DNA from: Gemmatimonadota bacterium
GTDB taxonomy: Bacteria > Gemmatimonadota > Gemmatimonadetes > Gemmatimonadales > GWC2-71-9
NCBI GenBank assembly: GCA_016209985.1
Contig: JACQVB010000158.1
Location: forward strand, 1-33,893
Length of the DNA stretch: 33,893 nucleotides
Direction: 5' to 3'
The notes beneath the pieces were generated by a model, which was given only the letters and a program-made list of their open reading frames with translations, was not told the DNA's origin and searched no databases. Position numbers and translations under genes: made by a program. Shown here one piece after another: positions 3,476-22,646 of the stretch (position 1 is the first letter of the stretch; the number at the start of each line of letters is the position of its first letter).

Positions 3476-3486
3476 CTCGGGATCCC

Positions 3487-4653: not shown

Positions 4654-4683
4654 CCGTCTCCCATTTTCTTCCAGCTTGGCGTA

Positions 4684-4743
4684 GTAACTGCGACCTGGTC
4701 TGGTAACTACGACAATTCCCGACCACAGGCGAAAGTTCCCGAC
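4684..4743. repeat. Two pairs of short direct repeats in a divergent promoter region
   Basis: Between the divergent DUF3179 and patatin genes, GTAACT(G/A)CGAC occurs at 4684-4694 and 4703-4713 (19-base period), and TTCCCGAC occurs at 4716-4723 and 4736-4743 (20-base period). Repeats spaced by about two helical turns in a divergent promoter are the usual arrangement for operator half-sites, but no regulator is identified. The rest of the 174-base gap shows nothing recognisable. Confidence 0.35.
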
Positions 4744-4827
4744 TTGGTCCCGCGTTTTCGAACCCTGTTCGCGTGGCGTTTAGGGTCGGGGAACCAATCC
4801 AGTGCTGCCCGTCTTCTTTGCGTTGTC

Positions 4828-5703: not shown

Positions 5704-5734
5704 GCGGTGGGGCATCGACCGAAGGATGGTTCCC

Positions 5735-6706
5735 ATGTCTCCGATTGTAAGCCGCGCAGTACGTGTCGCTCTGGTTGTAGGCACGATCCTGGTGGCGATC
5801 AACCAGGGACCGGCACTCTTCGGCGGTCATGTGAGCCTGACGTTGGCGGTTCGGATGGCGCTCACGTACGCCGTGCCTTTCTTCGTCTCACTTTACGCCG
5901 CCTCGCGGACCCAAGGGGATCGCCGTCTCGCCGAGCCGATCCGATCCACGCCTCCCGCCCTGACCATTGCCGGGAGATCACGGAGAGGTCGAACCTCGCA
6001 GTACGTCACCGCCGAGCAGATGATCGAGGTCGACCGGGCCATGGTCGAGGACTATCGCATCGAGCTGCTCCAGATGATGGAAAACGCCGGGCGGGGTCTC
6101 GCACAGCTAGCGCGTGACCGGTTCCTCGACGGCAGTGCTGACCGGAAGACCGTCATCGTGCTGGCTGGGGGCGGGAATAACGGCGGCGGAGCACTCACCG
6201 CCGGCCGGCACCTGCACAACTGGGGGGCCGAGGTGCGCGTGTTCCTTGCGACGCCGCCCGACGCGTTGACCGGCGTTCCGGCCCACCAGCTCGAGATTCT
6301 CAAGCGCATGGGGCTCTCCATTGCCCAGGCGATCCCCGCCTCGGGGCACCCACGCCCGGACGTCATCCTCGACGGGTTGATCGGATATCGGCTTTCCGGG
6401 GCGCCGCGGGGATCTGCCGCCGAGCTGATTCGCTGGGCCAACGCGCAGGACGCGCCTATTCTGGCGCTCGACGTCCCGTCGGGAGTGGATCCCACGAGCG
6501 GGGCCGTCTTTGATCCCGTCATCCGGGCGGCGGCGACGCTGACCCTCGCGCTGCCGAAGACCGGACTCAAGCTGCCCTCCGCGAGGGCGAACGTGGGGGA
6601 TCTGTATCTGGCCGACATCGGCGTGCCACCGGGTCTGTATGCGCGGTTGGGGATGATTCCGCCACGCGCGCTATTCGCTGAACGTGAGATTGTCCCGCTG
6701 CGGTGA
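5735..6706 (+). CDS. Fusion: NrtS-like membrane domain + NAD(P)H-hydrate epimerase-like domain
   Basis: 323 residues in one uninterrupted frame. Residues 1-60 contain two membrane helices with the pattern RAVRVALVVGTILVAINQG and ALTYAVPFFVSLYAA, resembling the small nitrate/nitrite transporter NrtS. After a basic linker (about 60-90), residues 91-323 form a YjeF N-terminal domain: VTAEQMIEVDR, MMENAGR, the phosphate loop GGGNNGG (145-151), ILDGLIGYRLSG and LDVPSGVDPTSG (245-256). This domain normally epimerises damaged NAD(P)HX. The loop ends in G where most epimerases have D (canonical NNGGDG), so activity may be altered. The start is chosen because GAAGGA lies 8 bases before the ATG at 5735. 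NrtS is normally a stand-alone protein of roughly 70 residues, so this tether of a nucleotide-repair domain to the membrane is unusual. Confidence 0.85.
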   Translation: MSPIVSRAVRVALVVGTILVAINQGPALFGGHVSLTLAVRMALTYAVPFFVSLYAASRTQGDRRLAEPIRSTPPALTIAGRSRRGRTSQYVTAEQMIEVDRAMVEDYRIELLQMMENAGRGLAQLARDRFLDGSADRKTVIVLAGGGNNGGGALTAGRHLHNWGAEVRVFLATPPDALTGVPAHQLEILKRMGLSIAQAIPASGHPRPDVILDGLIGYRLSGAPRGSAAELIRWANAQDAPILALDVPSGVDPTSGAVFDPVIRAAATLTLALPKTGLKLPSARANVGDLYLADIGVPPGLYARLGMIPPRALFAEREIVPLR

Positions 6707-6800
6707 AGCATCGTTGGCCGCGGAGGGGTACGCTGTGTCGTGACTCCACCAGCCGCGGGTACGGATGGGAGACGGCAGCCATGATTCTGGAGCACGTGGA

Positions 6801-7931
6801 ATGATCGCAACCTGGGCGGCGGTCACGATCACCCTGGTCGGGGCGGCGACGGTCCAATCTGTCCTGCCGCAGCACGCCGCCAGCGCGCCGGTCGAATGGC
6901 GGACCGACTTCTCGCGCCATACGGTGGCGCTGGCGGAGATTATTCCCGGCGGGCCGCCTAAGGACGGCATTCCGGCCATCGATCGGCCGCGTTTCGAGTC
7001 GGTGAAGGCGGCCGACCGCTGGCTCACCGACCGCGAGCCGGTCCTCGTGGTCGAACGCGGCGATCTGGCGCGCGCCTATCCGCTGCAGATCCTGCTCTGG
7101 CACGAGATCGTCAACGATCAGATCGGTGATCTCCCCGTCGCCGTGACCTATTGCCCCTTGTGCAACACCGCGATCGCGTTCGACCGCCGCCATCGGAATC
7201 TGGTGCTGGACTTCGGGACCACCGGCCGGCTGCGCCATTCCGATCTGGTGATGTACGATCGGCAAACCGAGAGCTGGTGGCAGCAGGCCACTGGTGAAGC
7301 GATTGTTGGCGAGTTCGCCGGCGACACGCTGCGCTGGGTCGGCGCGCAGATGGTGAGCTGGGTCGAGTTCAGGAAGTCCCATCCCGACGGCCAAGTGCTT
7401 TCGCGTGAAACCGGATTCGATCGTCCCTACGGCACGACGCCATACACCCGGTATGATGCACCGGGCGGCTCTCCCCTCGCCGGATTCTTCCGGTCCAAGC
7501 CGGATGCGCGACTGCCGGCGATGGAGCGGGTAGCGGCGGTACGGCTGGGCGATGAATCGGTGGCGTACCCGTTCACCGCGCTGCGGGAGCACCGCGTGGT
7601 CAACGATCGCGCGGCCGATCGACCCGTCGTGGTGTTCTGGGCGCCCGGCATGGCCAGTGCCGTCGACGCCGCGCGCATTGCCAGCGGGCGGGACGTCGGC
7701 TCGACCGGAGTGTTTGATCGCCGGCTGGACGGACGTACGCTCACCTTCGAGCCCGGCCCGGGCGACTCTTTCCGCGATCGCGAAACCGGCAGCACGTGGA
7801 GCCTGCGCGGGCGGGCCTTGGCGGGACCGTTGCGGGGCGCTCACCTGAGCCCCATAGCCGCCGGCGATTATTTCTGGTTCGCCTGGGCGGCGTTCAGGCC
7901 TGACACACGCATCTGGTCGAGGAAACGGTGA
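6801..7931 (+). CDS. DUF3179 domain protein, exported
   Basis: 376 residues, starting with a short hydrophobic signal-like segment (residues 1-20), then a full DUF3179 domain: GGPPKDGIPAI (50-60), ARAYPLQILLWHEIVND, VTYCPLCNTAIAFD with C118-P-L-C121, VMYDRQTESWWQQ, RPYGTTPY and FWFAWAAFRPDT. Unlike the first copy at 3487-4653, both cysteines of the CxxC motif are present; in some relatives the first is selenocysteine. The function of the family is not established; the conserved redox-type motif suggests extracytoplasmic thiol chemistry (inference). The ATG at 6801 is preceded by CTGGAG at a suitable distance; an upstream in-frame ATG at 6765 is less likely because it breaks the signal peptide. 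The stop overlaps a GTG that begins a decayed third copy. Confidence 0.9.
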   Translation: MIATWAAVTITLVGAATVQSVLPQHAASAPVEWRTDFSRHTVALAEIIPGGPPKDGIPAIDRPRFESVKAADRWLTDREPVLVVERGDLARAYPLQILLWHEIVNDQIGDLPVAVTYCPLCNTAIAFDRRHRNLVLDFGTTGRLRHSDLVMYDRQTESWWQQATGEAIVGEFAGDTLRWVGAQMVSWVEFRKSHPDGQVLSRETGFDRPYGTTPYTRYDAPGGSPLAGFFRSKPDARLPAMERVAAVRLGDESVAYPFTALREHRVVNDRAADRPVVVFWAPGMASAVDAARIASGRDVGSTGVFDRRLDGRTLTFEPGPGDSFRDRETGSTWSLRGRALAGPLRGAHLSPIAAGDYFWFAWAAFRPDTRIWSRKR

Positions 7932-8150
7932 TCCTTGCGACCGTCACGAGATTCCGGCGGTGGCTGGTGGTGTTGGCCGCGGCCGCACGTGGTGACTCGA
8001 CCGAGCCGAAGTCGCTGGAGCGACCGCACCACCGCTCGTGCACCTGCAGATCGCGCGGGCTCTCGCAAGCGTCCACGACCTGAACATCAGTTGCCGCATT
8101 CCGACCCAGCTGATTGTGAACGGCGGACCCGGAAAGGACGGAATTCTGGC
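7929..8150 (+). pseudogene. Truncated, frameshifted third DUF3179 copy
   Basis: A GTG overlapping the stop of the preceding DUF3179 gene (GTGA) opens a frame that begins like a signal peptide (RRWLVVLAAAARG) and stops after about 50 codons. In another frame the sequence continues as DLNISCRIPTQLI then GGPGKDGILA, which matches the start of DUF3179 domains in order and spacing (compare GGPGKDGIPAL and GGPPKDGIPAI in the two intact copies). Nothing DUF3179-like follows 8150. I read this as the 5' remnant of a tandem duplicate, broken by a frameshift and cut by a rearrangement. The whole 323-base interval 7932-8254 contains no intact gene. Confidence 0.55.
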
Positions 8151-8179
8151 AGCTCCGCCGCGACCAGACCCACGGTCTG
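8151..8179 (+). repeat. 29-base exact repeat, copy 1 (fragment of selenoprotein B-like gene)
   Basis: Identical over 29 bases to 11463-11491, where the sequence lies inside the selenoprotein gene just downstream of its UGA codon. Flanking bases differ on both sides. On the minus strand this copy could encode [10 protein letters not shown], the residues after the Sec motif, but no larger frame exists here. It lies exactly at the breakpoint of the decayed DUF3179 copy. Confidence 0.8.
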
Positions 8180-8193
8180 CGTGGCGCTTCTCG

Positions 8194-8208
8194 GGTTCCC
8201 TGGGAACC
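8194..8208. repeat. 15-base perfect palindrome upstream of the small membrane protein gene
   Basis: GGTTCCC-T-GGGAACC, with 7-base arms around one central base, lies 46 bases before the ATG at 8255. It could be an operator for the membrane protein/NADH dehydrogenase pair. The loop is too short for a stable hairpin, which favours a protein-binding site over a terminator. No further evidence of function. Confidence 0.3.
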
Positions 8209-8254
8209 GGAGCCGCGGGTTCGGCGTTGCGCTAGGATCACGCAGCTAAGGGCC

Positions 8255-8728
8255 ATGCGCGTTCTCCATCCGTTGTTCGTCCACCTGCACGTGGCCTTTC
8301 TGCTCATGGCCTTCGTGGCCATGTACGCCTGGTTGTTTCGCGGGCTGGCAACCAGTGTCTTCGAGGACCGCACCCACCGATTCGCGCGCGCCAATACCTG
8401 GGCGGGGATAGTGACGGTCGCGCTCTCCATGGTAGCAGGCATTCGCGACGGCATGTTCGGGACCGTCGCGCAGTTCCGGTCCGCCAGCGTGGGCGGCTGG
8501 CTGCTGGTCAAGGCGGTGCTGGCCACGTTCCTGTTGGTCAACTACGGGGTCTTCCTGTACCACAGCAGCAAGAAGCCCCGATACCTTCAGGAGGACGGCC
8601 GCCGAACGGCGTGGTGTCTCGGGACCCAGCTGGTGGGGATCGTCGTGGTCGCGTTCATCACGGCCATCGGTACCATGCTGGTGTATTATCAGGACTTGTT
8701 GCCCCGCTTTCCCTGGCCGCTGGAGTGA
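8255..8728 (+). CDS. Small four-helix membrane protein (DUF2231/CopD-like topology)
   Basis: 157 residues with four predicted membrane segments: about residues 8-30, 48-68, 76-100 and 122-146. The N-terminus HPLFVHLHVAF recalls DUF2231-type and CopD/b561-like small membrane proteins, whose histidines may bind heme, but I cannot assign a family firmly. The gene ends in GTGA shared with the start of the following type II NADH dehydrogenase, so the two are translationally coupled. This context suggests a role near the respiratory chain, for example as a membrane partner of the dehydrogenase (inference). Only a weak AAGG precedes the ATG. Confidence 0.7.
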   Translation: MRVLHPLFVHLHVAFLLMAFVAMYAWLFRGLATSVFEDRTHRFARANTWAGIVTVALSMVAGIRDGMFGTVAQFRSASVGGWLLVKAVLATFLLVNYGVFLYHSSKKPRYLQEDGRRTAWCLGTQLVGIVVVAFITAIGTMLVYYQDLLPRFPWPLE

Positions 8729-11257: not shown

Positions 11258-11986
11258 GAGCCGCAAGGCCGGCGGCGACAGCGCGGGGTCTTCCAGCAGG
11301 TGCAGCGCGGTTTCGATCACCGCGTGCTGCCGCGCGGGCGCGTCCGGCGCGTCGAGCGGATAGCCGTGGCGGAAGGGGACCAGCAGCGAGCGCGGTGCTC
11401 CGACCCGTTCCGCCGCCAGGCGCAGCAACTGAATGGCCACGGTGGCGATCCCCTGTCGCTCGAGCTCCGCCGCGACCAGACCCACGGTCTGGTTGCACAT
11501 GGGTCAGACCGGGACCAGGAGGACCGCGTCGGTCCGGTCCTCGACCAGTAGCTGGGCCGCCTGAGGCGCGGTTTCGCGAATGAGCCGGCCGGGCGCGGTG
11601 ATGGATCCCATGAACGACAGGTGCCGGGGACTCACCGTGCCGATTCGCCCCCGGGCCGCGAGCTCGTGCAGGCGGTCGAGCGGAAACGCGAGGTTCGGGT
11701 CGCGTTGCATGCCCTCATGATCGAACACCTCGCTCCGCTGGCAATCGACCAGGCGGGAGAGATCCGCGTCATTCGGCAGGACCCGGAAGCTCGTGTCGCC
11801 GCCTCTGACGGACCCGTCGAACGGCGATTGATCGGGCAGGACGAAGCCGGCGCTGGTCACCAGGGCCACCCGGCACTCCGCGAGCGGCCGCTTGAGCGGC
11901 GACCACGGGGTCGGCCGGATCCGCCTCCAACCGTAGGTCTTGAGAAAGAGGCGGTACCCCAGCGGGAACTCGCTCAGGTCACCCAC
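11246..11986 (-). CDS. GrdB/PrdB-like selenoprotein B family protein with in-frame UGA (Sec161)
   Basis: 246 residues if the UGA at 11504-11506 is read as selenocysteine. Frame before it: [54 protein letters not shown] and DAVLLVPV; then U; then [20 protein letters not shown] and 70 more residues to a TGA at 11246. The junction is therefore U-P-M-C, the U-x-x-C redox motif of the glycine/sarcosine/betaine/D-proline reductase selenoprotein B family. Coding similarity continues on both sides in the same frame. A perfect hairpin lies 10-30 bases downstream (separate entry). The GTG at 11986 is preferred because AAAGGGG precedes it; an in-frame ATG at 12022 is the alternative. Standard gene callers would split this gene in two. 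Its physiological substrate is unknown; stand-alone homologues in aerobes are thought to have thiol-redox rather than Stickland roles (inference). Confidence 0.85.
11463..11491 (+). repeat. 29-base exact repeat, copy 2 (inside selenoprotein gene)
   Basis: Same 29 bases as 8151-8179. Here it is part of an intact coding frame (minus strand, residues [10 protein letters not shown] after the Sec codon), so this is the source copy and the other a transplanted fragment. Confidence 0.8.
11475..11506 (-). promoter_or_regulatory. Bacterial SECIS-like hairpin with its UGA codon
   Basis: On the minus strand the UGA (11506-11504) is followed by 10 bases and then ACCAGACC-GUG-GGUCUGGU, a perfect 8-base-pair stem with a GUG apical loop at 11485-11483. 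The loop begins 19 bases after the UGA. Bacterial SECIS elements sit directly downstream of the Sec UGA with an apical loop about 16-37 bases away containing G and U, which SelB binds. Position, stem and loop all fit. The small loop is the main departure from the E. coli fdhF element. Confidence 0.7.
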
Positions 11987-12031
11987 CGCGTCCCCTTTCC
12001 CCGAGCGCGAACACCGGTGCAACTCACGAAC

Positions 12032-12493
12032 TCAGGTCCCGGCGGCCTGTCGCGCGCTCTTCAGACGAGCTTCATCCAGGGTCCATAGGTCGCCGTCGCG
12101 CAGGAGATAGAGTGTAAAGAAGCCCGCCAGCACCGGGACCCCTGCCAGGAAGAGATGATTGGGACGTCCGCCGCTCACGAGGCCCCACGGATCGATCAAC
12201 TGTTTCCAGGATGCCGCGACGGAGACAAAGTGGAGCACAAATCCGAGGCCATAGGAGATTCGCCGCCACAGCCCCACGGTAATGGCCAACGCGAGCACGG
12301 TTTCCAGAGCGCCGATCAGATAGGGAACGCTGGGACCGATGTCGATCAGGTAGAATCCCTTCCAGATCCCCACGGTGGTCTGGGGGATGAAGAACTTCTC
12401 CAGACTCCAGAGAAGCAGGAACAGTCCGAGAGAGATGCGGAGCACTGCCAAGGCGAGCGCCAGCGTGCGTGGCGACTGCGGCTCTGGAGTCAT
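12032..12493 (-). CDS. DoxX-like membrane protein
   Basis: 153 residues with four predicted membrane helices (about 13-33, 54-73, 78-100, 112-133) and a DoxX-type layout: an N-terminal LRISLGLFLLLWSLEKFF helix with a central charged residue and a final helix followed by a polar tail. DoxX proteins are small membrane proteins often linked to thiol/sulfur redox or respiratory functions. The ATG at 12493 has AAGGAAGG upstream; an in-frame ATG at 12562 would add 23 polar residues. It lies 45 bases upstream of the selenoprotein gene on the same strand, so the two may be co-transcribed, and divergent from the radical SAM fusion gene. Confidence 0.82.
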   Translation of the reverse strand: MTPEPQSPRTLALALAVLRISLGLFLLLWSLEKFFIPQTTVGIWKGFYLIDIGPSVPYLIGALETVLALAITVGLWRRISYGLGFVLHFVSVAASWKQLIDPWGLVSGGRPNHLFLAGVPVLAGFFTLYLLRDGDLWTLDEARLKSARQAAGT

Positions 12494-12517
12494 CGACCCT
12501 TCCTTGAAGGAGGAGTG

Positions 12518-12691
12518 GTGAGCGACCGCTGTTTCCCACTCACTCAATTCTTCGGGTGCCATGAAGGTTCCCGGAGCCGAGGGTGCGGTCCCACTGGCCC
12601 GCCGCCTCGCTTAGGACGCGCCGTCACCAGGCCCGGGCCCGTCGGGCTTACGGCGGGAACTAGCGGGCGGTTTCGGGGATTGGCTGATTGA
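12518..12691 (+). CDS. Candidate small Cys-containing ORF upstream of the RRE-radical SAM gene
   Basis: GTG-initiated frame of 57 residues preceded by a full AAGGAGG (12507-12513, spacer only 4 bases). It has three cysteines (residues 5, 14 and 23) in an otherwise Gly/Pro/Arg-rich sequence, and ends 72 bases before the radical SAM fusion gene. Its third-position GC content (about 64 percent by hand count) is lower than in clear genes here, which argues against coding. It is listed because genes with a PqqD-like recognition domain often act on a small peptide encoded nearby. Could well be spurious. The rest of the 270-base gap 12494-12763 should hold the operon promoter; no clear boxes were found. 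Confidence 0.18.
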   Translation: MSDRCFPLTQFFGCHEGSRSRGCGPTGPPPRLGRAVTRPGPVGLTAGTSGRFRGLAD

Positions 12692-12763: not shown

Positions 12764-15238
12764 ATGCAGTTTGCCGAACGAGCTCCGCTCTATCTCCCTG
12801 AGATTCACCGGTTCGAAGCCGACGGTCTGGTGTACGTCCTCGACCCTGAAGCCCCCAACTGGATTGCCGTAGACGAGCGCGGGAGTCTGCTGCTGGGGGA
12901 GATCCATGCCGCGCCGGGCCGCACCCTCGCCGGATTGGTGGGCTGGTACGCGCGGCAGCACAACGTGGAACCCGGCAAGGCGTGGGTTCACGTGCACGAC
13001 TTCCTCCACCAGCTCGATCGGGCCGGTTTCCTCTCCACTACGCCGGTAGTCCGGCAGCCATACCCAGGGCGCTGGGCACTGGTGCAGCCGGACGGTCTGC
13101 GGGAACTGTGGATCCAGATCAACAACGCCTGCAATCTTTCGTGCCCTCACTGTCTGGTTTCCTCGGGGCCGGGAGAGGCGCGCGGTCTGCCGCTGGAGCA
13201 GGTGACCCGTGTGCTCGATCGGGCCGGTGCGCTCGGGTTGGAGCGGCTCTATTTGACGGGAGGCGAGCCCTTCGTCCGCAAGGACGTCTTCCGGCTGCTT
13301 CAGCACGCGACAGCCCAGCTGGGGATCGAGGCCGTGGTCCTCACCAATGGTACCGTCTTCACGGGACCAATCCGCAGCGGACTCGAGACCCTCGACCGGG
13401 CGAAGGTGCGGTTCCAGGTATCACTCGACGGCGCGACTCCGGCCACCAACGACGCGCTTCGGGGGCCCGGCATGTTCGCCAGGGCGCTGGACGGCACGCG
13501 GCTGCTCGCCGACCTGGGCTTCGACGTTTCCATCACAACCGTCACCACGCGCAAAAATCTGGCCGAGTTGCCGTCGCTACCGTCACTCGCGAAGGCGGCC
13601 GGCGCCAAGAGTCAGCATGTGATGTGGACCCACAAACGGGGCCGGGCGGCGGCAAGCTTGAACGGCTTCTTCCCCGACACTGCGGCGTTGCTGCGGGCTG
13701 TGATGGAGACCGTGCAGGCGGCTGAGACGGCCGGGATCGAGCTGGACAATCTGGAGGTCCTGAAACGGCGCGTGAACGGGATGCCGGGCGTGAAGTACGA
13801 CTTCGGCAACGGGGGGTGGGATTCGCTGTGTGTCAATTACGACGGCCGCGTCTATCCCACGGCCGCCCTGGCCGGCGATCCGCGACTGGTGTGTGGGGAC
13901 GCGACGCGAGACGAACTGGTGAGGATTCTCGACAGCTCACCGGTGGTGCGCCGCCTCCGAAATGCCACGGTGGCACGCAAGCCCTCCGTACGCGACGATC
14001 CGTTCCGCTTCTTTACCGGTGGCGGAGATTGGGAGCACGCCTGGAGCTTTTCCGGCGGGGATCCACTGGCGCCCGACCCCTACTATCCGATTACCCTCGC
14101 GTTGATCCGCCACGTCATGACTACGCTCGGTGAGGAGAAGCGGGCCCGCCGCAACCTGCGCTCGGGGTACGATGCCCCGCTGGTGCTCCACGCCATGGGG
14201 GAAGGGGCCATCGCCTGCGGCACGGCCGACGGGGCGCTGGCGGAGCAGCCGGTGCTCACGCTGCATTCGAACTGCGTGCTCTCCTTCGACGTGGACAAAC
14301 CGCGGGCCAAGGTGCGCGAGTTCTACGGCGCCGCGGCCGAGCAGCCAAAAGCCGATCTCTGCTGCCCGACCAAGTACGATGCCGGGGCGGTCGCTCACAT
14401 CCCGCAAGACGTGCTCGACCGCTTCTACGGGTGCGGCTCGCCCATGCTGACCGCGGGCATTGCGCCAGGTGAGACGGTGGTCGATCTGGGCTCGGGAGCG
14501 GGGATCGACGTATTCATCGCTGCCAAGCTCGTGGGTCCCGCCGGGCGGGCGATCGGCGTGGACATGACCAACGAAATGTTGGCGGTGGCGAACGACAACA
14601 AGCCGAAGGTGGCGGCCGCTCTGGGATACGACGTCGCGGAATTCCGCAACGGGTACCTGGAGCAGATCCCGGTGGACTCCAGAAGCGTCGACCTGATCAC
14701 CTCAAACTGTGTGGTCAACCTTTCCCCCGACAAGTCGCGCGTGTTCGAGGAGATGTGGAGAATTCTCAAGGACCACGGCCGGATCGTCGTGTCGGACATC
14801 GTGAGCGAAACCGAAGTCCCGCCACACCTCAAGGTGAACCCCGAGCTGTGGGGCGAATGCCTCGTGGGGGCCCTCACCGAGGAACAGTTCCTCTCCCAAC
14901 TGGAGCGGGCCGGCTTCTATGGCCTGACGGTTCTCGGCAAGACTTACTGGAAGGACGTGGAAGGCTATCCGTTCTTCTCGATCACGGTCCGGGGTTTCAA
15001 GCTCGAGAAAACCTCCGGCTGCATCTATCGGGGGCAGCGGGCCGTGTATCTCGGTCCCGCGAAGGCCTTCATCGATGAGGAAGGCCACCTCTTCCCGCGT
15101 AACGAACCCTATGAGGTGTGCACCGACACGGTCGCCAAGCTTTCCAGACCTCCGTATGTCGGGATGTTCGCCATTCTCGAGCCCGGCGTGAACCGGGCCG
15201 GGTACGCCTGCTGTGGCTCGGACGGAGCGTGCTGCTAA
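12764..15238 (+). CDS. PqqD-like (RRE) + radical SAM + ArsM-like methyltransferase fusion
   Basis: 824 residues in one frame. Residues about 13-95 form a PqqD-like/RRE domain. Residues about 113-400 are a radical SAM domain with C123-N-L-S-C127-P-H-C130 for the 4Fe-4S cluster, GGEP at 166-169 and a reduced SPASM-like segment (C356, C377) lacking the full auxiliary cysteine set. Residues about 400-530 are unassigned. Residues 531-824 resemble the As(III) methyltransferase ArsM: CC at 533-534, YGCGSP, SAM motif VVDLGSGAG (572-580), SNCVVNLSPDK (C649), GEC (C699) and the ArsM C-terminal part with EVC (C786). C534/C649/C699 are likely counterparts of the three arsenic-binding cysteines of ArsM. 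The protein ends ACCGSDGACC. The ATG is preceded by GGAGG. It heads an operon with a Pit permease (TAATG overlap) and two arsenosugar-type glycosyltransferases. Likely role: SAM-dependent methylation plus radical adenosylation or carbon transfer on a metalloid or thiol-bound substrate (inference). Confidence 0.88.
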   Translation: MQFAERAPLYLPEIHRFEADGLVYVLDPEAPNWIAVDERGSLLLGEIHAAPGRTLAGLVGWYARQHNVEPGKAWVHVHDFLHQLDRAGFLSTTPVVRQPYPGRWALVQPDGLRELWIQINNACNLSCPHCLVSSGPGEARGLPLEQVTRVLDRAGALGLERLYLTGGEPFVRKDVFRLLQHATAQLGIEAVVLTNGTVFTGPIRSGLETLDRAKVRFQVSLDGATPATNDALRGPGMFARALDGTRLLADLGFDVSITTVTTRKNLAELPSLPSLAKAAGAKSQHVMWTHKRGRAAASLNGFFPDTAALLRAVMETVQAAETAGIELDNLEVLKRRVNGMPGVKYDFGNGGWDSLCVNYDGRVYPTAALAGDPRLVCGDATRDELVRILDSSPVVRRLRNATVARKPSVRDDPFRFFTGGGDWEHAWSFSGGDPLAPDPYYPITLALIRHVMTTLGEEKRARRNLRSGYDAPLVLHAMGEGAIACGTADGALAEQPVLTLHSNCVLSFDVDKPRAKVREFYGAAAEQPKADLCCPTKYDAGAVAHIPQDVLDRFYGCGSPMLTAGIAPGETVVDLGSGAGIDVFIAAKLVGPAGRAIGVDMTNEMLAVANDNKPKVAAALGYDVAEFRNGYLEQIPVDSRSVDLITSNCVVNLSPDKSRVFEEMWRILKDHGRIVVSDIVSETEVPPHLKVNPELWGECLVGALTEEQFLSQLERAGFYGLTVLGKTYWKDVEGYPFFSITVRGFKLEKTSGCIYRGQRAVYLGPAKAFIDEEGHLFPRNEPYEVCTDTVAKLSRPPYVGMFAILEPGVNRAGYACCGSDGACC

Positions 15239-16323
15239 TGATGCTCCTTCTTGTGGCCCTGACTCTCGTCGTGGCGTTTGCGAACGGGGCGAACGACGCG
15301 TCCAAGGGTGTCGCCACGCTGGTGGGATCGGGCGTGACCGATCTCCGCCGGGCGCTACGCTGGGGTACGGTATGGACGGTTGCGGGCGGCGTCGTGGCCG
15401 CCTTTGCCGCCCGGGGTCTGGCAGAGGTGTTCTCCGGCACGGGCCTGCTTACCACGCCGCCCGGACCCGAGTTCCTGGCGGCGGTCGCCGCCGGCTCGAT
15501 TGGGTGGCTGATCATTGCGACGCGGACCGGGCTCCCGGTGTCGACGACCCATTCGCTCGTGGGCGGCCTGGTCGGGGCGGCCCTCGTTGCACAGGGGGTC
15601 GGGGGCGTCAACTGGACCGGCGTAGTCGCGAAGACCGCATTGCCGCTCGCGGTCTCGCCGGTGCTGTCGCTCTTCCTCATGCTGGTGGTCTTTCCGCTCA
15701 TCGGCTTCACCTTCCGGCGTGCTAACCGCTACTGCTTGTGCCTCGAGCGCACCGATCCGGTGGTGGTCATGTCAGGCTCGGCGGCGGCGCTGGCGACGGG
15801 ACCGTCGCTGAACGTGATCGCGGGCGCGGACTGCCCGCCGCAGGTGGTCGCGCGACTCCAGGCGATGGACTCCCTGCATTGGCTGTCGGCGGGGTTCGCC
15901 AGCTTCTTCCGTGGGTTGAACGACACGCCGAAGATTCTCGCCCTCGGCATGGCGGCCGCGGCAACGACGGGGATGGGAACCTCGGGGTTCTTCGCACTCG
16001 TGGCCGTCGCGATGGGGGTTGGCAGCTATGTCGCCGGGCGGCGCGTCACTGAGACTCTCGCCGGGAAGATCACACGCATCTCCCCGGATGACGGCTTCGC
16101 GGGCAACCTGGTGACTTCGGTGCTGGTGGGCCTCGCTTCGTTTCTGGCCGTGCCGGTCTCCACCACGCATGTGGCCGCAGGGGCAATCATCGGCATCGGT
16201 ATGCACCAGCGGCAGGTGCGGTGGACGATGGTACGGGACATGGGGCTCGCGTGGGTCGTGACCCTACCGGTCGCGGCGATTTTCGCCGGCCTGACGTACG
16301 TCGCCCTCACCCGCCTCGGATAG
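15238..16323 (+). CDS. pit: Pit-type inorganic phosphate (arsenate) permease
   Basis: 361-residue PHO4-family permease. Seen: the duplicated signature, GANDASKG at 17-24 and RGLNDTPK at 225-232, and paired VSTTH segments at 101-105 and 307-311, reflecting the inverted internal repeat. There are about ten membrane helices, and the central cytoplasmic loop is short compared with E. coli PitA (about 500 residues). Pit proteins move phosphate with a cation and also admit arsenate. The ATG overlaps the stop of the radical SAM fusion gene (TAATG), so the two are translationally coupled. This argues for delivering the substrate, or replacing phosphate, for the pathway of this operon. Confidence 0.92.
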   Translation: MMLLLVALTLVVAFANGANDASKGVATLVGSGVTDLRRALRWGTVWTVAGGVVAAFAARGLAEVFSGTGLLTTPPGPEFLAAVAAGSIGWLIIATRTGLPVSTTHSLVGGLVGAALVAQGVGGVNWTGVVAKTALPLAVSPVLSLFLMLVVFPLIGFTFRRANRYCLCLERTDPVVVMSGSAAALATGPSLNVIAGADCPPQVVARLQAMDSLHWLSAGFASFFRGLNDTPKILALGMAAAATTGMGTSGFFALVAVAMGVGSYVAGRRVTETLAGKITRISPDDGFAGNLVTSVLVGLASFLAVPVSTTHVAAGAIIGIGMHQRQVRWTMVRDMGLAWVVTLPVAAIFAGLTYVALTRLG

Positions 16324-16368
16324 ACGGGTGCATCCTCCGTGGATTCCAAGGCAGGTCGCGGCAGGCGA

Positions 16369-17055
16369 ATGATGATCAGCGTCGTCATTCCCACGGTCAA
16401 CGAGGCGCCGGTGCTCCCGGCGCTGCTCGACGACCTGCGCGAGCTGGCCAGGGCAGTGCCCCTCGAGGTGGTCGTCGTGGACGGCGGGTCGAGCGACGGG
16501 ACGCCCGCCCGAGCGGCCGCCGGCGGCGCGCGGGTGCTGCACGCGCCCCGCGGGCGCGCGAGTCAACTCAACAGTGGAGCGATGGTGGCACGCGGGGAGT
16601 GGCTGTTGTTCCTCCATGCCGACTGTCGCCTCGACCCAGGCACCCCACGGGCTCTCCTCCCGGCGCTCGAGCCCTCGGCCGGGGTGCAGGCCGCGGTGTT
16701 CCGGTTTGCCATCGACCTCCCGAGGTTCTGGCGGCACTTCATCGAAGCCGGACAGGCCGTCCGCGAGGCCCTGTCAGGCCTGGCCTACGGGGACCAGGGG
16801 CTGCTGATCCGGCGCGATCTCTTCGCGGCCGTCGGGGGGTACCCGGATCTGCCGCTCATGGAGGACGTCGCGATGATCTGCACGTTGCGAAGGCGGATCC
16901 GCGTCGCGCGACTGCCCGCGCCCCTGGTTACCTCCGGGCGTCGCTACCGACGCGGCGGCGTGCTGCGGACCTGGCTGAAGCACACTGCGTTGATCTCGCT
17001 GTACCTGATCGGCGCGTCCCCAACACGACTCGCCAGGTGGCGGGACGGTGTGTAG
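16369..17055 (+). CDS. TIGR04283-type family 2 glycosyltransferase
   Basis: 228 residues, GT-A fold. Seen: ISVVIPTVNEAPVLPALL at the N-terminus, VVVDGGSSDGT, APRGRASQLNSGA and LLFLHADCRLDP (metal-binding motif HAD), then YGDQGLLIRRDLF, GGYPDLPLMEDVAM and RRYRRGGVLRTW. These are the hallmarks of the TIGR04283 family, named arsenosugar biosynthesis glycosyltransferase because it co-occurs with the radical SAM protein ArsS. It probably transfers a sugar to or from the organoarsenical intermediate; the substrate is unproven. The ATG at 16369 places the first strand at the N-terminus; a GTG at 16339 is possible. The 3' end overlaps the next gene by 8 bases. Confidence 0.9.
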   Translation: MMISVVIPTVNEAPVLPALLDDLRELARAVPLEVVVVDGGSSDGTPARAAAGGARVLHAPRGRASQLNSGAMVARGEWLLFLHADCRLDPGTPRALLPALEPSAGVQAAVFRFAIDLPRFWRHFIEAGQAVREALSGLAYGDQGLLIRRDLFAAVGGYPDLPLMEDVAMICTLRRRIRVARLPAPLVTSGRRYRRGGVLRTWLKHTALISLYLIGASPTRLARWRDGV

Positions 17056-17686
17056 GTCCCTGCGTCCGGATGTCCTGGGCGTCTTGGTCAAGGCGCCCGT
17101 GCCCGGCCGGGTCAAGACCCGACTGGCCTCCACGGTCGGGGTGCGACGCGCGACCGAGATCTACCGGCGCCTCGGGCGGCAAATCGTCGGGGCGTGCGCC
17201 GGTCCCGGCCACGACACGGTGGTGTGGTACGCGCCGGCGGAGGCCCGGGCGGCGGTGCGCGACTGGTTGAAAGGACTGCCCGTCGCCGCATACCGAGCCC
17301 AGGTCTCCGGTGCATTGGGCGCGCGCCTCGCCGCGGCGTTTCAGCGGCACTTTGGCGAGGGGGCGCACCGGGTAATTCTGATCGGATCGGATTGTCCCCG
17401 GGTCGACGCCGGCCTCGTGTCGCGGGCGCTGGCAGCGCTCGACGATCACGCACTCGTCCTCGGCCCGGCGTACGATGGGGGGTACTACTTGATCGGGCTC
17501 CGCACGCCGGTCCCGCAGCTCTTTCGGGGGATCGCCTGGTCGACGGAAATGGTATTGGAGCAGACGCTGACTCGGGCGCGGCAACTCGGACTCCGCACGG
17601 TGCTTCTGCCTGTATTGCGGGACGTCGATACGGTAAGCGATGCTCGTGCCGCCGGTATGGTCGAACCAAGCGGCCTTCATGAGTAA
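17048..17686 (+). CDS. TIGR04282-type (DUF2064) glycosyltransferase-like protein
   Basis: 212 residues. Seen: LGVLVKAPVPGRVKTRLA near the N-terminus, GALGARLAAAF, VILIGSDCPRVDAGLV, LGPAYDGGYYLIGL and IAWSTEMVLEQTL with a closing VLRDVDT. These are the motifs of DUF2064/TIGR04282, a nucleotidyltransferase-like GT-A fold whose members pair with TIGR04283 proteins and are named for arsenosugar biosynthesis. It may activate or transfer the sugar used by its neighbour. The GTG at 17048 overlaps the previous stop by 8 bases, and its own stop overlaps the zwf start by 8 bases. Such tight coupling implies matched expression of the two enzymes and zwf. Confidence 0.9.
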   Translation: MCRSLRPDVLGVLVKAPVPGRVKTRLASTVGVRRATEIYRRLGRQIVGACAGPGHDTVVWYAPAEARAAVRDWLKGLPVAAYRAQVSGALGARLAAAFQRHFGEGAHRVILIGSDCPRVDAGLVSRALAALDDHALVLGPAYDGGYYLIGLRTPVPQLFRGIAWSTEMVLEQTLTRARQLGLRTVLLPVLRDVDTVSDARAAGMVEPSGLHE

Positions 17687-19088
17687 ATCCCAGTCCGACG
17701 TTTTGGTGTTCTTTGGCGCCACGGGTGATCTGGCTTTCAAGAAGATCTTCCCGGCGTTACAGGCAATGGCCAGACGCGGCCACCTTGATGTGCCGGTCAT
17801 TGGCGTAGGCAGGTCGGACTGGACTGCCGACCAGCTCCGGGCCCGAGCCCGCGAGAGCCTGGAGCAGCAGGGAGGAGTCGATCCCGCCGCTTGGGAAAAG
17901 CTCTGTGGCGTGCTGCGCTATGTGCGCGTCGACTATTCCGACCCGCCGACGTTTGAGGCACTGTGCAAAGAGCTGGGTGGAGCCGAACGGCCGGCGCATT
18001 ACCTGGCTATCCCTCCCCACATGTTCGAAACGGTGGTGGAACAACTGGAGAAGTCCGGCTGCGCCAAGGGGGCGCGCGTGCTCGTCGAAAAGCCCTTCGG
18101 ACGAGACCTGGCCTCCGCCCGGGAGCTGAATCGGATCCTGCTCAAGACCTTCGACGAATCGGCGATCTTTCGCATCGATCATTATCTCGGGAAGCGGCCG
18201 GTGAGCAACCTGCACTTCTTCCGCTTGGCAAATGGGTTTCTGGAGCCGGTCTGGAACCATACCTGCATCGAGAGCGTGCAGATCACTCTGGCGGAAGACT
18301 TCGGGGTCCAGGGCCGAGGCGGCTTCTACGAGGAAACAGGCGCCATCCGGGATGTGATACAGAACCACCTGTTCCAGGTGCTGACCAATCTGGCCATGGA
18401 ACCGACCGTCAGCACCGATAGCGAATCCATTCGGGATGAAAAGGTCGCAGTCCTCAAGGCCATCCCTCCGCTCGAGACGAAGGATCTGGTACGCGGGCAG
18501 TTCGTGGGCTATCGAAACGAGAAGGATGTGGCGCCGGATTCCGACGTGGAGACGTATGCCGCCATGCGACTGGACATTGACTCAGAACGCTGGCGCGGCG
18601 TCCCCTTCTATCTCCGAGCCGGGAAGTGCCTGCCCACCACCTACACGGAAGTCGTGGTTCGGCTCCGCCGGCCGGCGACCCGGTATCGAGACCTCCCTCT
18701 GAAACCAAACGGTTTGCGACTGCGGATCAGTCCCGAGATCCTCTTCGCGCTGAGCCTGAATGTGCTGGGTCCCGACGAGCAGAAGCCGGGCCAATCAGTG
18801 GAGATGGTGGCGTGCCGCCAACACGGCGCCGATGAGATGGCTGCCTACGAACGGGTGCTGGGAGATGCCATGAAGGGAGACGCCACCCTGTTCGCCCGGC
18901 AGGATTATGCGGAAGAGGCGTGGCGCATCGTCGATCCGGTCTTGCAGGCGGACACACCGGTCCATGCATACGAGCGGAATACTTGGGGGCCGAGCGAAGT
19001 CGACAAAATCCTCTCACCCGCCGGAGGCTGGCACAACCCGATCATAGCTGACGAGTCCGATGTAGAGCGGCAGCTTCCTGACGATTGA
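17679..19088 (+). CDS. zwf: Glucose-6-phosphate 1-dehydrogenase
   Basis: 469 residues. Oxidises glucose 6-phosphate to 6-phosphogluconolactone, reducing NADP(+) (or NAD(+)). Seen: the coenzyme loop FFGATGDLAFKK (11-22), VEKPFG (136-141), the substrate signature RIDHYLGK (165-172) and the catalytic histidine in QNHLFQ (H230). The family length of about 480-500 is nearly matched. The loop GATGDLA differs slightly from the common GASGDLA. The ATG at 17679 overlaps the TIGR04282 gene. Its unusual position inside this operon, rather than with gnd or edd, suggests it supplies NADPH or pentose units to the pathway (inference). Confidence 0.94.
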   Translation: MSKSQSDVLVFFGATGDLAFKKIFPALQAMARRGHLDVPVIGVGRSDWTADQLRARARESLEQQGGVDPAAWEKLCGVLRYVRVDYSDPPTFEALCKELGGAERPAHYLAIPPHMFETVVEQLEKSGCAKGARVLVEKPFGRDLASARELNRILLKTFDESAIFRIDHYLGKRPVSNLHFFRLANGFLEPVWNHTCIESVQITLAEDFGVQGRGGFYEETGAIRDVIQNHLFQVLTNLAMEPTVSTDSESIRDEKVAVLKAIPPLETKDLVRGQFVGYRNEKDVAPDSDVETYAAMRLDIDSERWRGVPFYLRAGKCLPTTYTEVVVRLRRPATRYRDLPLKPNGLRLRISPEILFALSLNVLGPDEQKPGQSVEMVACRQHGADEMAAYERVLGDAMKGDATLFARQDYAEEAWRIVDPVLQADTPVHAYERNTWGPSEVDKILSPAGGWHNPIIADESDVERQLPDD

Positions 19089-19181: not shown

Positions 19182-20324
19182 GTGAGCCAACCGCACACGG
19201 TCATTCTGGTCGGGGCCGGCCACGCCCATCTCTATGTTGCTGCCCATGCCGAAACGCTCGTCGAGCGCGGGGCGCGGGTGGTGTTGGTCGATCCGGCCGA
19301 GTTCTGGTATTCGGGTTTGGCCACCGGAATGCTGGGGGGCATGTACCAGCCCACCGAAGATCAGGTGAACCCGCGGGCGTTGATGGAAGCCCATGGTGGC
19401 GAGTTCATCCAGGACCGGGTCGAAGCCGTGGAAACCGGCGCGCGGCGGCTTCGCCTGGCCGGCGGCGGTGAACTGGCCTACGATTATTTGTCGATCAATG
19501 TCGGCAGTCGGGTGAATGTCGGCGCCATCCCCGGCGCGGCGCACGATCCCAGCGTCTGGTCGGTCACACCCGTCAGCAATCTGTGGAAGGTGCGCGAGCT
19601 TTTGGACGCGCGGTTTCGAGGGGGCGAGACGCCGCGTGTGGCGGTGGTCGGCGGCGGGCCTACGGGTTCCGAGGTGGCGGCCAATCTGACTGCACTGGCC
19701 ACTCGTCATGACGTCGATATGCCAGTGACCCTGGTCACCCGCAGCGACCGCCTGATCAAGCAGGCCCCGGCCGGCGCCGCACGGGCGCTGCTGCGAAACC
19801 TGAACCGACGGGGCGTGGCAATCCGCACCCACACCAGGATCGTCCGTCGCGAGGGGGAGTCATTGATCGCTGACGACGGTGGCCACCTCAACGCCGATGT
19901 CGTCGTTCTGGCGACCGGACTCGAAGCCAACCCGCTGGTGCAGGAAACGGGCCTGCCGGCTCGTTCCAGGAAAGGTCTGCGTATCAACGCAAAGTTGCAT
20001 TCGATCGCCGACGAGCGGGTATTCGCGGGCGGTGATTGCGCCGCCATGGAAGGCTTCGATCTGCCCAAGCTGGGCGTGTTTGGTGTGCGCCAGGCCGCCT
20101 ACATCCACACCAACCTGCTGGCCAGTTTGGATGGGAAACCACTGGCCGAATACGAACCCCAGAAACGCTATCTCGCCATCCTCAACCTCGGCGACAGCAC
20201 CGCGTTGTCGACTTGGGGGCCGTTTTGGTGGAACGGCCGTTCCAGCATGTGGTTGAAAGACTTCATCGACCGGCGCTTTCTCGAAGGCTACCGGCAGCAT
20301 TCCGGCAACACGCAGCAGCATTAG
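19182..20324 (+). CDS. FAD-dependent oxidoreductase, NDH-2/SelD-associated type
   Basis: 380 residues. Seen: ILVGAGHAHLYVAAHAE at the N-terminus (FAD motif with the HAHL variant), EFWYSGLATGMLGG, VAVVGGGPTGSEVAANL (second dinucleotide motif) and VFAGGDCAAM (FAD ribityl motif). The GxGHAHL and YSGL features resemble the flavoprotein domain fused to selenophosphate synthetase in some bacteria as well as NDH-2. It probably oxidises NAD(P)H and reduces a quinone or a small oxidised substrate. The GTG at 19182 is inferred from homology; only a distant GAAGAAGG precedes it. It lies 93 bases after zwf and 10 bases before the TVP38 gene, forming the second half of the operon. Confidence 0.87.
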   Translation: MSQPHTVILVGAGHAHLYVAAHAETLVERGARVVLVDPAEFWYSGLATGMLGGMYQPTEDQVNPRALMEAHGGEFIQDRVEAVETGARRLRLAGGGELAYDYLSINVGSRVNVGAIPGAAHDPSVWSVTPVSNLWKVRELLDARFRGGETPRVAVVGGGPTGSEVAANLTALATRHDVDMPVTLVTRSDRLIKQAPAGAARALLRNLNRRGVAIRTHTRIVRREGESLIADDGGHLNADVVVLATGLEANPLVQETGLPARSRKGLRINAKLHSIADERVFAGGDCAAMEGFDLPKLGVFGVRQAAYIHTNLLASLDGKPLAEYEPQKRYLAILNLGDSTALSTWGPFWWNGRSSMWLKDFIDRRFLEGYRQHSGNTQQH

Positions 20325-20334
20325 GAGAGACGCC

Positions 20335-21093
20335 ATGACCACCGATCAGCGGGTCCCGGTGTCGAATCGTCGCCAGCGGATTGTTACGGTCGTGCGGTGG
20401 CTGTCGATCTTGTTGATTGTGGCCGCCCTGCTGACGATCGTCCGCTGGTTGCCGATTGGCCACGCGATGGAAGCGACGAAAGGCTGGATCTCCGGACTGG
20501 GAGTCTGGGGGCCGGTGGCCTTGGCGCTCTGGTACATCGTGGCCACGGTGCTGTTCGTGCCGGGAACGATTCTGACGCTGGCTGCCGGCGCAATGTTCGG
20601 ATTGGTGGTCGGGATGATCACGGTATCCATCGGGTCGACGCTGGGAGCGTCGCTCGCCTTCCTCATCGCGCGCTACGTGGCCCGGGACCAGATCGCCGCC
20701 ATGGCTGGCCGCAACCGCCGCTTTGGCGCGATCGATCGGGCGATCGGCGAAGGGGGCTGGAAGATCGTGGCCTTGCTTCGACTGTCGCCGGCAATTCCTT
20801 TCAATCTGCAGAACTACCTCTACGGCCTGATGCGGATTCGTTTCTGGCCGTACGTGGTCACCAGCTGGCTGGCCATGCTTCCCGGCACCTTTCTTTACGT
20901 CTATCTCGGGCACGTCACGGGCGTGGCCATGGAGGCCGACCGGTCGCGTACCCCCGGGGAGTGGACGTTGCTGGCCGTTGGGTTACTGGCGACGGTCGTA
21001 GTCACGGTGTACATGACGCGGCTGGCCCGCCGCGCACTGCACGAGCACATGAGCGAATCGGCCGCGGACAACGACGAATGGAGAACCTCGTGA
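20335..21093 (+). CDS. TVP38/TMEM64 (VTT domain) membrane protein
   Basis: 252 residues with about six membrane helices. Seen: the VTT/SNARE-associated core, VLFVPGTILTLAAGAMFG, GSTLGASLAFLIARY, LRLSPAIPFNLQNYLYG and WLAMLPGTFLYVYLG. These are the motifs of the DedA/TVP38 superfamily, whose members can move lipids or take part in envelope homeostasis. TVP38 genes often neighbour MerA-like oxidoreductases, as here: the stop lies inside the next gene (16-base overlap), and in many genomes the two are even fused. TAGGAGA precedes the ATG. A membrane channel or substrate-handling role for the adjoining oxidoreductase is inferred. Confidence 0.9.
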   Translation: MTTDQRVPVSNRRQRIVTVVRWLSILLIVAALLTIVRWLPIGHAMEATKGWISGLGVWGPVALALWYIVATVLFVPGTILTLAAGAMFGLVVGMITVSIGSTLGASLAFLIARYVARDQIAAMAGRNRRFGAIDRAIGEGGWKIVALLRLSPAIPFNLQNYLYGLMRIRFWPYVVTSWLAMLPGTFLYVYLGHVTGVAMEADRSRTPGEWTLLAVGLLATVVVTVYMTRLARRALHEHMSESAADNDEWRTS

Positions 21094-22646
21094 TTCCGGA
21101 AGAAAACACGAATCTCGCGGATCAGCCGGTCATCGAGCGATTGCCGCAAACCAGTCCGGCGGACCAGTTCAATCAGGAACTGGTTCGCAACGTTCATCCC
21201 TTGGACTGGGTAAACCCGCAGCCCGCCGGACGATACAACCTGGTCGTCATCGGCGCCGGCACCGCCGGCCTGGTGACCGCAGCCGGAGCGGCGGGTCTGG
21301 GGGCCAGGGTCGCGTTGATCGAACGCGACCTGATGGGCGGCGACTGCCTGAACGTCGGGTGCGTGCCGTCGAAGGGTGTCATCAGCGCGGCCCGCGTCGC
21401 CGCAGCCGTGCACCATGCAGGTGAGTTCGGTGTCGAGGTACCAGACGGTGTGAACGTCAACTTCGCCGGCGCCATGCGGCGAATGCGACGGCTGCGAGCC
21501 CGAATCAGCCCGAATGATTCGGCCCTACGATTCCGTAACCTCGGCATCGACGTCTATTTCGGGCGGGCACGATTCGTGGATTCCAGCACGGTCGACGTGG
21601 GCGGGACGCATCTCAACTTCAAGCGGGCGGTGATCGCGACCGGCGCGCGAGCCGCGGCACCGGCGATTCCCGGCTTGAATGCGGTCGATTACCTGACCAA
21701 CGAGACGCTGTTCTCGCTGACCCAGTTGCCCTCGCGACTTGGCGTCATCGGCGCGGGACCGATCGGCTGCGAGATGGCTCAAGCGTTCGCGCGGCTGGGT
21801 GCCGACGTGTGGTTGGTCGAGGTGGAACATGGCATCCTGCCGCGCGAAGACCGTGACGCGGCCGGGATCGTGCAACAGACGATGGAGCGGGACGGCGTCA
21901 GGCTGCTCTGTTGCGGCAAGAAACTCGAGATCAGGCAGGACGGAGGCATCCGGCTGGTGGTCGAATCGCACGGCACCGGATACGACGAGCCGATCGACCA
22001 GTTGTTGCTGGCCGCCGGCCGGGCGCCGAACGTCGAGGGGCTGAACTTGGAATCCGTGGGCGTGGACTACGACAAGAAAGGCGTCAAGGTCGACGAACGC
22101 ATGCAGACGACGAACCCCCGGATTTACGCCGCGGGAGACATTTGCTCGCCCTACCAGTTCACCCACGCAGCCGATTTCATGGCTCGCATCGTGATCCAAA
22201 ATGCGCTGTTCAAAGGCCGGAAGAAGTCCACCTCGCTGGTGATGCCCTGGTGTACCTACACCTCGCCCGAACTTGCCCACGTGGGGCTCTACGAGGGCCA
22301 GGCCAAAGAAAAGGGGATCGAAATCGACACGTTCGTCCAGGAGTTCCGTGACGTAGACCGTGCGATCCTGGACGGAGAGGACGGCGGCTTCGTCAAAGTC
22401 CACGTGAAGAAAGGCACCGACACTATCGTCGGCGCGACCATCGTCGCCCGCCACGCGGGCGACTTGATCTCCGAGATCACCCTCGCCATGACCCACGGTC
22501 TGGGGCTGAAGAAGATCGGCACCACGATTCACCCGTACCCGACCCAAGCCGAAGCCATCCGCAAACTGGGCGATCAATTCAACCGCACGCGGCTGACACC
22601 CTTTGTGACGCGGCTCTTCAACCAGTGGCTGGCCTGGACCCGCTGA
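21078..22646 (+). CDS. MerA-like pyridine nucleotide-disulfide oxidoreductase
   Basis: 522 residues. An N-terminal extension of about 50 residues (VHPLDWVNPQPAGRYN) leads to the FAD motif VVIGAGTAGLVTAAG, active site GGDC90-LNVGC95-VPSK, NAD(P)H motif LGVIGAGPIGCEMA, YAAGDICSP and the dimerisation domain ending with HPYPTQAEAI. The VHPxDWVNP extension is the hallmark of the TVP38-linked subfamily commonly labelled mercuric reductase. However, the protein ends LFNQWLAWTR, without the C-terminal vicinal cysteines that bind Hg(II) in true MerA, and has no HMA domain, so mercury is unlikely to be the substrate. Start: ATG 21078, or GTG 21090 with a GGAGA ribosome binding site. It is the last gene of the operon. 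Confidence 0.92.
   Translation: MENLVIPEENTNLADQPVIERLPQTSPADQFNQELVRNVHPLDWVNPQPAGRYNLVVIGAGTAGLVTAAGAAGLGARVALIERDLMGGDCLNVGCVPSKGVISAARVAAAVHHAGEFGVEVPDGVNVNFAGAMRRMRRLRARISPNDSALRFRNLGIDVYFGRARFVDSSTVDVGGTHLNFKRAVIATGARAAAPAIPGLNAVDYLTNETLFSLTQLPSRLGVIGAGPIGCEMAQAFARLGADVWLVEVEHGILPREDRDAAGIVQQTMERDGVRLLCCGKKLEIRQDGGIRLVVESHGTGYDEPIDQLLLAAGRAPNVEGLNLESVGVDYDKKGVKVDERMQTTNPRIYAAGDICSPYQFTHAADFMARIVIQNALFKGRKKSTSLVMPWCTYTSPELAHVGLYEGQAKEKGIEIDTFVQEFRDVDRAILDGEDGGFVKVHVKKGTDTIVGATIVARHAGDLISEITLAMTHGLGLKKIGTTIHPYPTQAEAIRKLGDQFNRTRLTPFVTRLFNQWLAWTR

Follow-up and report, generated by a model that had tools for sequence, protein, structure and literature searches.

The 33,893-nucleotide stretch of Gemmatimonadota DNA analysed here (the window) encodes a single uninterrupted protein of 824 residues that joins an RRE (PqqD-like) domain, a radical SAM domain and an ArsM-like arsenite methyltransferase domain (Table 1). 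From sequence comparisons, we consider it fairly probable that this fusion is a bifunctional replacement for ArsM plus ArsS, which would methylate As(III) and then adenosylate the methylarsenical by radical SAM chemistry.

A three-domain architecture conserved across phyla

Profile matches and fold bear out what a sequence-only reading of the window had proposed, namely an RRE, a radical SAM domain and an ArsM domain in one polypeptide. The full-length AlphaFold model (pLDDT 81.6) matches ArsM structures first and the RRE-rSAM-SPASM maturases SkfB, SuiB and CteB next, and an NCBIfam search found no curated equivalog that covers the fusion protein. Searches for relatives recovered the family in several phyla, and since over 20 genomes share the three domains in an identical order, a gene-fusion artefact or chance was ruled out; the architecture is confirmed as real.

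Table 1. Features of the fusion gene and its neighbourhood (positions in the window)
Feature	Position	Strand	Evidence or remark
RRE / radical SAM / SPASM-like / ArsM fusion protein	12764..15238	+	single uninterrupted ORF, 824 aa/codons
RRE (PqqD-like) winged-helix domain, residues 8-90	12785..13033	+	AF2 model + Foldseek; PF05402 E 0.007
Radical SAM core, residues 112-300	13097..13663	+	PF04055 (Radical_SAM, Pfam) at residues 118-261, E 4.4e-23; fold match SkfB/SuiB/CteB/PqqE
CX3CX2C motif C123, C127, C130 (radical SAM [4Fe-4S] site)	13130..13153	+	conserved in 22/22 readable relatives
SPASM-like region, residues 345-445	13796..14098	+	PF13186 E 0.012 here, 3.8e-6 in L013
Linker, residues ~446-510, with C485 and C504	14099..14293	+	23-fusion alignment
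ArsM-like arsenite methyltransferase domain, C-terminal subdomain and CC tails included, residues 511-824	14294..15235	+	
PHO4/Pit-family permease	15238..16323	+	PF01384 E 4e-64; start overlaps fusion stop (TAATG)
TIGR04283 glycosyltransferase ('arsenosugar biosynthesis')	16339..17055	+	232 bits vs cut-off 182; likely start 16369
TIGR04282 glycosyltransferase ('arsenosugar biosynthesis', CofC-like)	17048..17686	+	195.7 bits vs cut-off 134
Glucose-6-phosphate dehydrogenase (zwf)	17679..19088	+	TIGR00871 459 bits; overlaps TIGR04282 gene
FAD/NAD oxidoreductase, SelD-N-like family	19182..20324	+	TIGR03169 244 bits, below cut-off 310
VTT-domain (TVP38-like) membrane protein	20335..21093	+	PF09335 E 2.6e-30
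MerA/lipoamide-dehydrogenase-like flavoprotein	21078..22646	+	homologue beside ArsS + TIGR04283 + TIGR04282 in L144
PrdB/GrdB-like protein	11504..12022	-	TIGR04483 86 bits, below cut-off 300
DoxX-like protein	12032..12562	-	divergent from fusion

Full-length relatives occur in Gemmatimonadota, a 'Chloroflexi' MAG, Nitrospinota, Nitrospirota and an archaeal MAG. In whole-genome searches, of 395 Gemmatimonadota genomes at least 10 carry the fusion; for Planctomycetota the tally is at least 11 of 246, and for the Nitrospirota/Nitrospinota group at least 4 of 77. The window's own genome carries additional, ordinary ArsM-like genes. Two otherwise intact fusion genes are interrupted by an in-frame TAG (L008, 8892-8894; L212, 3253-3255), at the Tyr442 and Ser220 equivalents. 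We considered these amber stops as recoded residues, but their positions are unrelated and sequencing error or a pseudogene is more likely. Literature searches, whose coverage of subscription journals was thin, returned no description matching this fusion. What is new is the fused, RRE-bearing enzyme; the ArsM/radical SAM type of organoarsenical pathway is already known.

ArsM pairs with more than one type of radical SAM domain, as seen from a second rSAM-ArsM fusion of 609-627 residues that lacks the RRE (L016, from Ca. Loosdrechtia, and L204-L206, in planctomycete genomes) and from L219, where a standalone L016-type radical SAM protein is encoded close to an ArsM gene. TIGR04283 adjoins the RRE-less fusion at L206. 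An independent origin of the L016-type fusion is not provable (AU p 0.097). Standalone ArsM proteins of ~330 residues (L188-L203), whose identity with the fused ArsM domain is 44-52%, are common in Nitrospirota-group genomes, and no radical SAM gene of the queried types was found within 1.5 kb of them.

Domain conservation and cysteine content

Models of arsenite methyltransferases give the best matches to the methyltransferase region (residues 527-818; NF008823, E 1.5e-68; NF040538, E 6e-57), as do ArsM crystal structures (5evj, E 1.7e-40), and the fold of the region matches 6cx6, 4fs8 and 5evj. It shares with characterized ArsM structures (CmArsM 4fs8/6cx6, CrArsM 5evj, AS3MT 8xt7) the fold, the SAM motifs, the C-terminal subdomain and the equivalents of CmArsM C72, C174 and C224. 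By alignment these are C557, C649 and C699, invariant in 23 of 23 relatives, and the arsenic-binding cysteines claimed from the sequence are indeed in place. The fusion alignment shows C533, C534, C557, C649, C699, C753, C786 and C824 to be invariant in this domain, with 65% mean identity and 65 of 215 columns invariant in the ArsM core. Unlike those ArsM proteins, the domain sits behind an RRE and a radical SAM domain, is accompanied by an extra conserved linker Cys, and scores under the curated ArsM cut-offs (NF008823, 231 bits versus 263; NF038099, 149 versus 400). Judged from these alignments, the ArsM half would with high likelihood methylate arsenic.

The radical SAM core shows 49% mean identity and 40 of 191 invariant columns in the same alignment; its CX3CX2C site, which the sequence-only reading had called intact, is invariant in 22 of 22 readable relatives, and a GGE motif is conserved. 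These features, together with the pairing of ArsM with more than one radical SAM type, argue against a detoxifying ArsM fused by happenstance to a regulatory or vestigial radical SAM domain, a reading that the loss of the AuxII cysteines from the window's lineage (below) would fit but that we find scarcely credible. The best non-ArsM NCBIfam model for the domain is that of the Rv1681 family (NF049973, 132 bits versus a cut-off of 380), and NCBIfam scores put it nearer to Rv1681/MftC-type enzymes; it is not recognisably ArsS. In contrast to the fusion, the Rv1681 family has no ArsM domain.

Residues 400-530 had been thought to hold a new domain. They are instead accounted for by a degenerate SPASM region, a linker with two conserved cysteines (C485 in 22 of 23 fusions, C504 in 23 of 23) and the start of the ArsM domain at about residue 511; the SPASM remnant is recognisable in relatives, where the equivalent of residues 345-415 reaches the significance listed for L013 in Table 1. 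By eye, neither standalone ArsM nor the L016-type fusion shows a counterpart of C485 or C504. Four positions in the pattern CX2CX5C...C, which by comparison with anSME we take to be the AuxII set, are V409, D412, T418 and Y441 in the window's protein. The quartet is all Cys in 12 of the 23 aligned fusions and all non-Cys in 11, including that of the window; its loss maps to one change on the fusion tree (branch support only 73/53), and the pattern is consistent with one cluster lost as a unit. Most AuxI cysteines are also absent from the window's protein. The G084 fusion (L153 = L103, 1501-4251, minus strand) carries, after the SPASM CX2CX5C and before the final Cys, a low-complexity insertion of ~70 residues.

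The PqqD match at the N-terminus is weak by sequence and lies below the Pfam cut-off. Structure prediction of residues 1-111, a check suggested along with the original proposal of an RRE, gave an AlphaFold model with pLDDT 89 whose top 16 PDB matches in Foldseek are all RRE domains or RRE-containing enzymes, among them TbiB1, PqqD (5sxy), ThcOx, McbB, PbtF and CteB; the predicted RRE fold is thereby confirmed at the level of the model. Such a fold, a PNW motif within it that is conserved among relatives, and the fact that the closest solved full-length folds are RRE-rSAM-SPASM RiPP maturases (CteB 5wgg, SuiB, SkfB), to which residues 1-445 correspond in domain order and fold, would all suit a RiPP-type enzyme in which the RRE recruits a precursor, the radical SAM domain modifies the peptide and ArsM methylates the peptide or a bound metalloid. 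However, of all the domains the RRE varies most (its mean pairwise identity is 37%, with 2 invariant columns among 92, versus the 65% of the ArsM core), and across the 16 loci compared no conserved small ORF lies within 4 kb of the gene. Unlike the maturases, the fusion has no precursor ORF that we could find in its vicinity, has lost AuxII in the window's lineage and carries a fused methyltransferase. We regard a RiPP-type function as quite unlikely. The few small ORFs shared near fusions were rejected as precursor candidates, as they appear to be antisense frames of genes that the loci have in common. Because the RRE is so little conserved and no conserved precursor ORF lies nearby, the peptide carrier held by the RRE that had been imagined from the sequence is unlikely and found no support here, although a precursor could be encoded at a distance.

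Gene neighbourhood and relation to ArsS

Neighbour lists were built by BLAST with the window's proteins and simple ORF calls. The PHO4 permease that follows the fusion in the window also adjoins it at L007, L008, L093, L097, L157, L208 and L210-L212. TIGR04283 and TIGR04282 glycosyltransferases, both above cut-off, lie beside the fusion in the window and at L011/G381 (one contig); in G142 (L151) TIGR04283 passes its cut-off and is accompanied by a TIGR04282 homologue, L007 has homologues of both, and both the L015 archaeon and Planctomycetota have TIGR04282 above cut-off next to the fusion. At least one of TIGR04282, TIGR04283 and PHO4 occurs within 1.5 kb of 10 of 11 Planctomycetota fusions, whereas none of the 16 standalone Nitrospirota ArsM genes examined with the same flank has any of them (Fisher p 1.3e-6). 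No glycosyltransferase was found near the fusions of L009, L010 and L098, and TIGR04283 is present in only 7 of the 10 Gemmatimonadota fusion genomes (p 0.01). True ArsS is flanked by the same glycosyltransferases in the same phylum (L144, L146, L147, L149). The PrdB/GrdB-like and DoxX-like genes that diverge from the window's fusion have homologues near the L007 fusion as well.

The fusion differs from ArsS, as had been claimed: its best score against TIGR04167 is 64 bits versus a cut-off of 300 in its own genome (61.8 in the NCBIfam search), and Pfam gave no DUF3641 match at E<=1. Like the ArsM and ArsS pair of arsenosugar biosynthesis (e.g. Synechocystis SsArsM/SsArsS), it combines ArsM with a CX3CX2C radical SAM domain and has TIGR04282/4283 neighbours; unlike the pair, it is one polypeptide that includes an RRE and a SPASM-like region. 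ArsS was not found in any of the 10 Gemmatimonadota fusion genomes, nor in any of 9 genomes reached via other loci, a set that overlaps with the ten and includes L016 with its other fusion type. Within the window's family (f1), 7 of 14 TIGR04283-bearing genomes have ArsS, 5 others have the fusion and none has both. Across the phylum this mutual exclusion is not significant (p 0.40); we dropped it as a statistic and kept it as a pattern only. At L017 an ArsM that is 39% identical over residues 517-807 directly precedes a true ArsS (438 bits), and an ArsM of the fused-domain type also stands beside ArsS in L147. The free radical SAM tree separates the fusion from ArsS, but a joint clade is not rejected (AU p 0.08), and unrelated lineages are not provable.

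Because the glycosyltransferase context is shared, fusion genomes lack ArsS and an ArsM of the same type precedes ArsS in L017, we read the fusion as a putative non-orthologous replacement of ArsM plus ArsS. Counting against this reading are the radical SAM score far under the ArsS cut-off, the ArsM scores under the curated cut-offs, the fusions with no glycosyltransferase close by and the many genomes that have TIGR04283 but neither ArsS nor the fusion. The same neighbourhood, ArsS absence and ArsM-ArsS operons support, as a possibility, the earlier idea of one enzyme that methylates and then alkylates or adenosylates arsenic. That idea, the three domains and the distinction from ArsS survive from the sequence-only reading; the peptide carrier and the new domain do not.

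The radical SAM domain might instead move a different SAM-derived group, such as 3-amino-3-carboxypropyl in the manner of ArsL, or another carbon substrate onto arsenic, to give a non-sugar organoarsenical. ArsL chemistry is known (PMC8552651), and the fused ArsM domain scores well (193 bits) against NF040538, the arsinothricin ArsM model. ArsL and ArsM of arsinothricin biosynthesis resemble the fusion as a radical SAM protein and an ArsM that make C-As bonds, with similarity in the ArsM C-terminal part, but they are separate proteins in a different genomic context (arsQML). With TIGR04282/4283 recurring as neighbours, as they do around ArsS, and with the fusion and ArsS not found in one genome, we consider transfer of another group unlikely.

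The 'arsenosugar' naming of TIGR04282 and TIGR04283 was given by association, and the label is suggestive only. As many as 83 of 120 TIGR04283-bearing Gemmatimonadota genomes have neither ArsS nor the fusion, which weakens TIGR04283 as a specific arsenic marker. At L175, L176 and L178-L180, in genomes without ArsS and fusion, a MerA-like flavoprotein accompanies TIGR04283/TIGR04282 (often one ORF). L182 (G033, 3386-8560) carries an Rv1681-family radical SAM gene (446 bits versus a cut-off of 380) beside TIGR04282 and TIGR04283 homologues, at a locus where neither ArsS nor ArsM was matched; by reading of the sequences, PhnD-like, acyl-CoA dehydrogenase-like and DoxX-like genes lie nearby. Since the cassette also occurs without ArsS or the fusion, the neighbourhood is strong evidence of a shared pathway context, short of proof that the substrate is arsenic. 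Such genomes, L182 and the SelD-N-like oxidoreductase near the window's fusion could be taken to mean that the enzyme acts on selenium, antimony or some other metabolite, and that the cassette serves that compound. The arsenic-site cysteines of ArsM are all invariant, however, and same-type ArsM proteins partner true ArsS; a substrate other than arsenic seems very unlikely to us. The putative arsenic assignment rests mainly on these cysteines and on the ArsM-ArsS operons.

Proposed reaction sequence and significance

Under the ArsM-plus-ArsS replacement that we favour, the C-terminal domain would bind As(III) on C557, C649 and C699 and, using SAM, convert it by methylation to MMAs(III)/DMAs(III), as homology and the invariant cysteines suggest. 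At the [4Fe-4S] cluster of the radical SAM domain another SAM molecule would be cleaved, yielding a 5'-deoxyadenosyl radical that would add to the methylated arsenic. Given the neighbourhood and the replacement pattern, the product may be of the 5'-deoxy-5'-(dimethylarsino)adenosine type, as for ArsS, and could then be elaborated by the TIGR04282 and TIGR04283 glycosyltransferases. Pit permeases carry arsenate, and the translationally coupled PHO4/Pit permease may supply arsenate/phosphate. The RRE would have been inherited from radical SAM ancestors that resembled RiPP maturases and probably now serves in structure or docking, and the AuxII cluster, lost in the window's lineage, would not be needed for the chemistry.

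Radical SAM enzymes that form C-As bonds have precedents in adenosylation by ArsS and in ArsL (PMC12159101, PMC8552651). Radical chemistry on a methylated arsenical is likely for the fusion on sequence grounds, and by analogy with ArsS (PMC12159101) the balance tips towards 5'-deoxyadenosyl as the group transferred. A more detailed picture, which we put forward tentatively as possible rather than probable, is of a single enzyme that would build successive C-As bonds on one As atom, by polar methyl transfer and then 5'-deoxyadenosyl radical addition, with the toxic methylarsenical handed from one site to the other over the fusion-specific cysteines C485/C504, the RRE repurposed away from peptides and the auxiliary Fe-S cluster dispensed with.

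The fusion ties ArsM to radical SAM chemistry as a Rosetta-stone link. In this one protein several ideas become directly testable: that a single metalloid is acted on with SAM in two ways, that metalloids are channelled, that an RRE can serve something other than peptides and that a SPASM cluster can be lost in nature. Surveys based on ArsS would miss fusion-bearing genomes that lack ArsS. If our reading is true, organoarsenical (arsenosugar-type) biosynthesis would extend to uncultured Gemmatimonadota, Planctomycetota, Nitrospinota/Nitrospirota and archaea.
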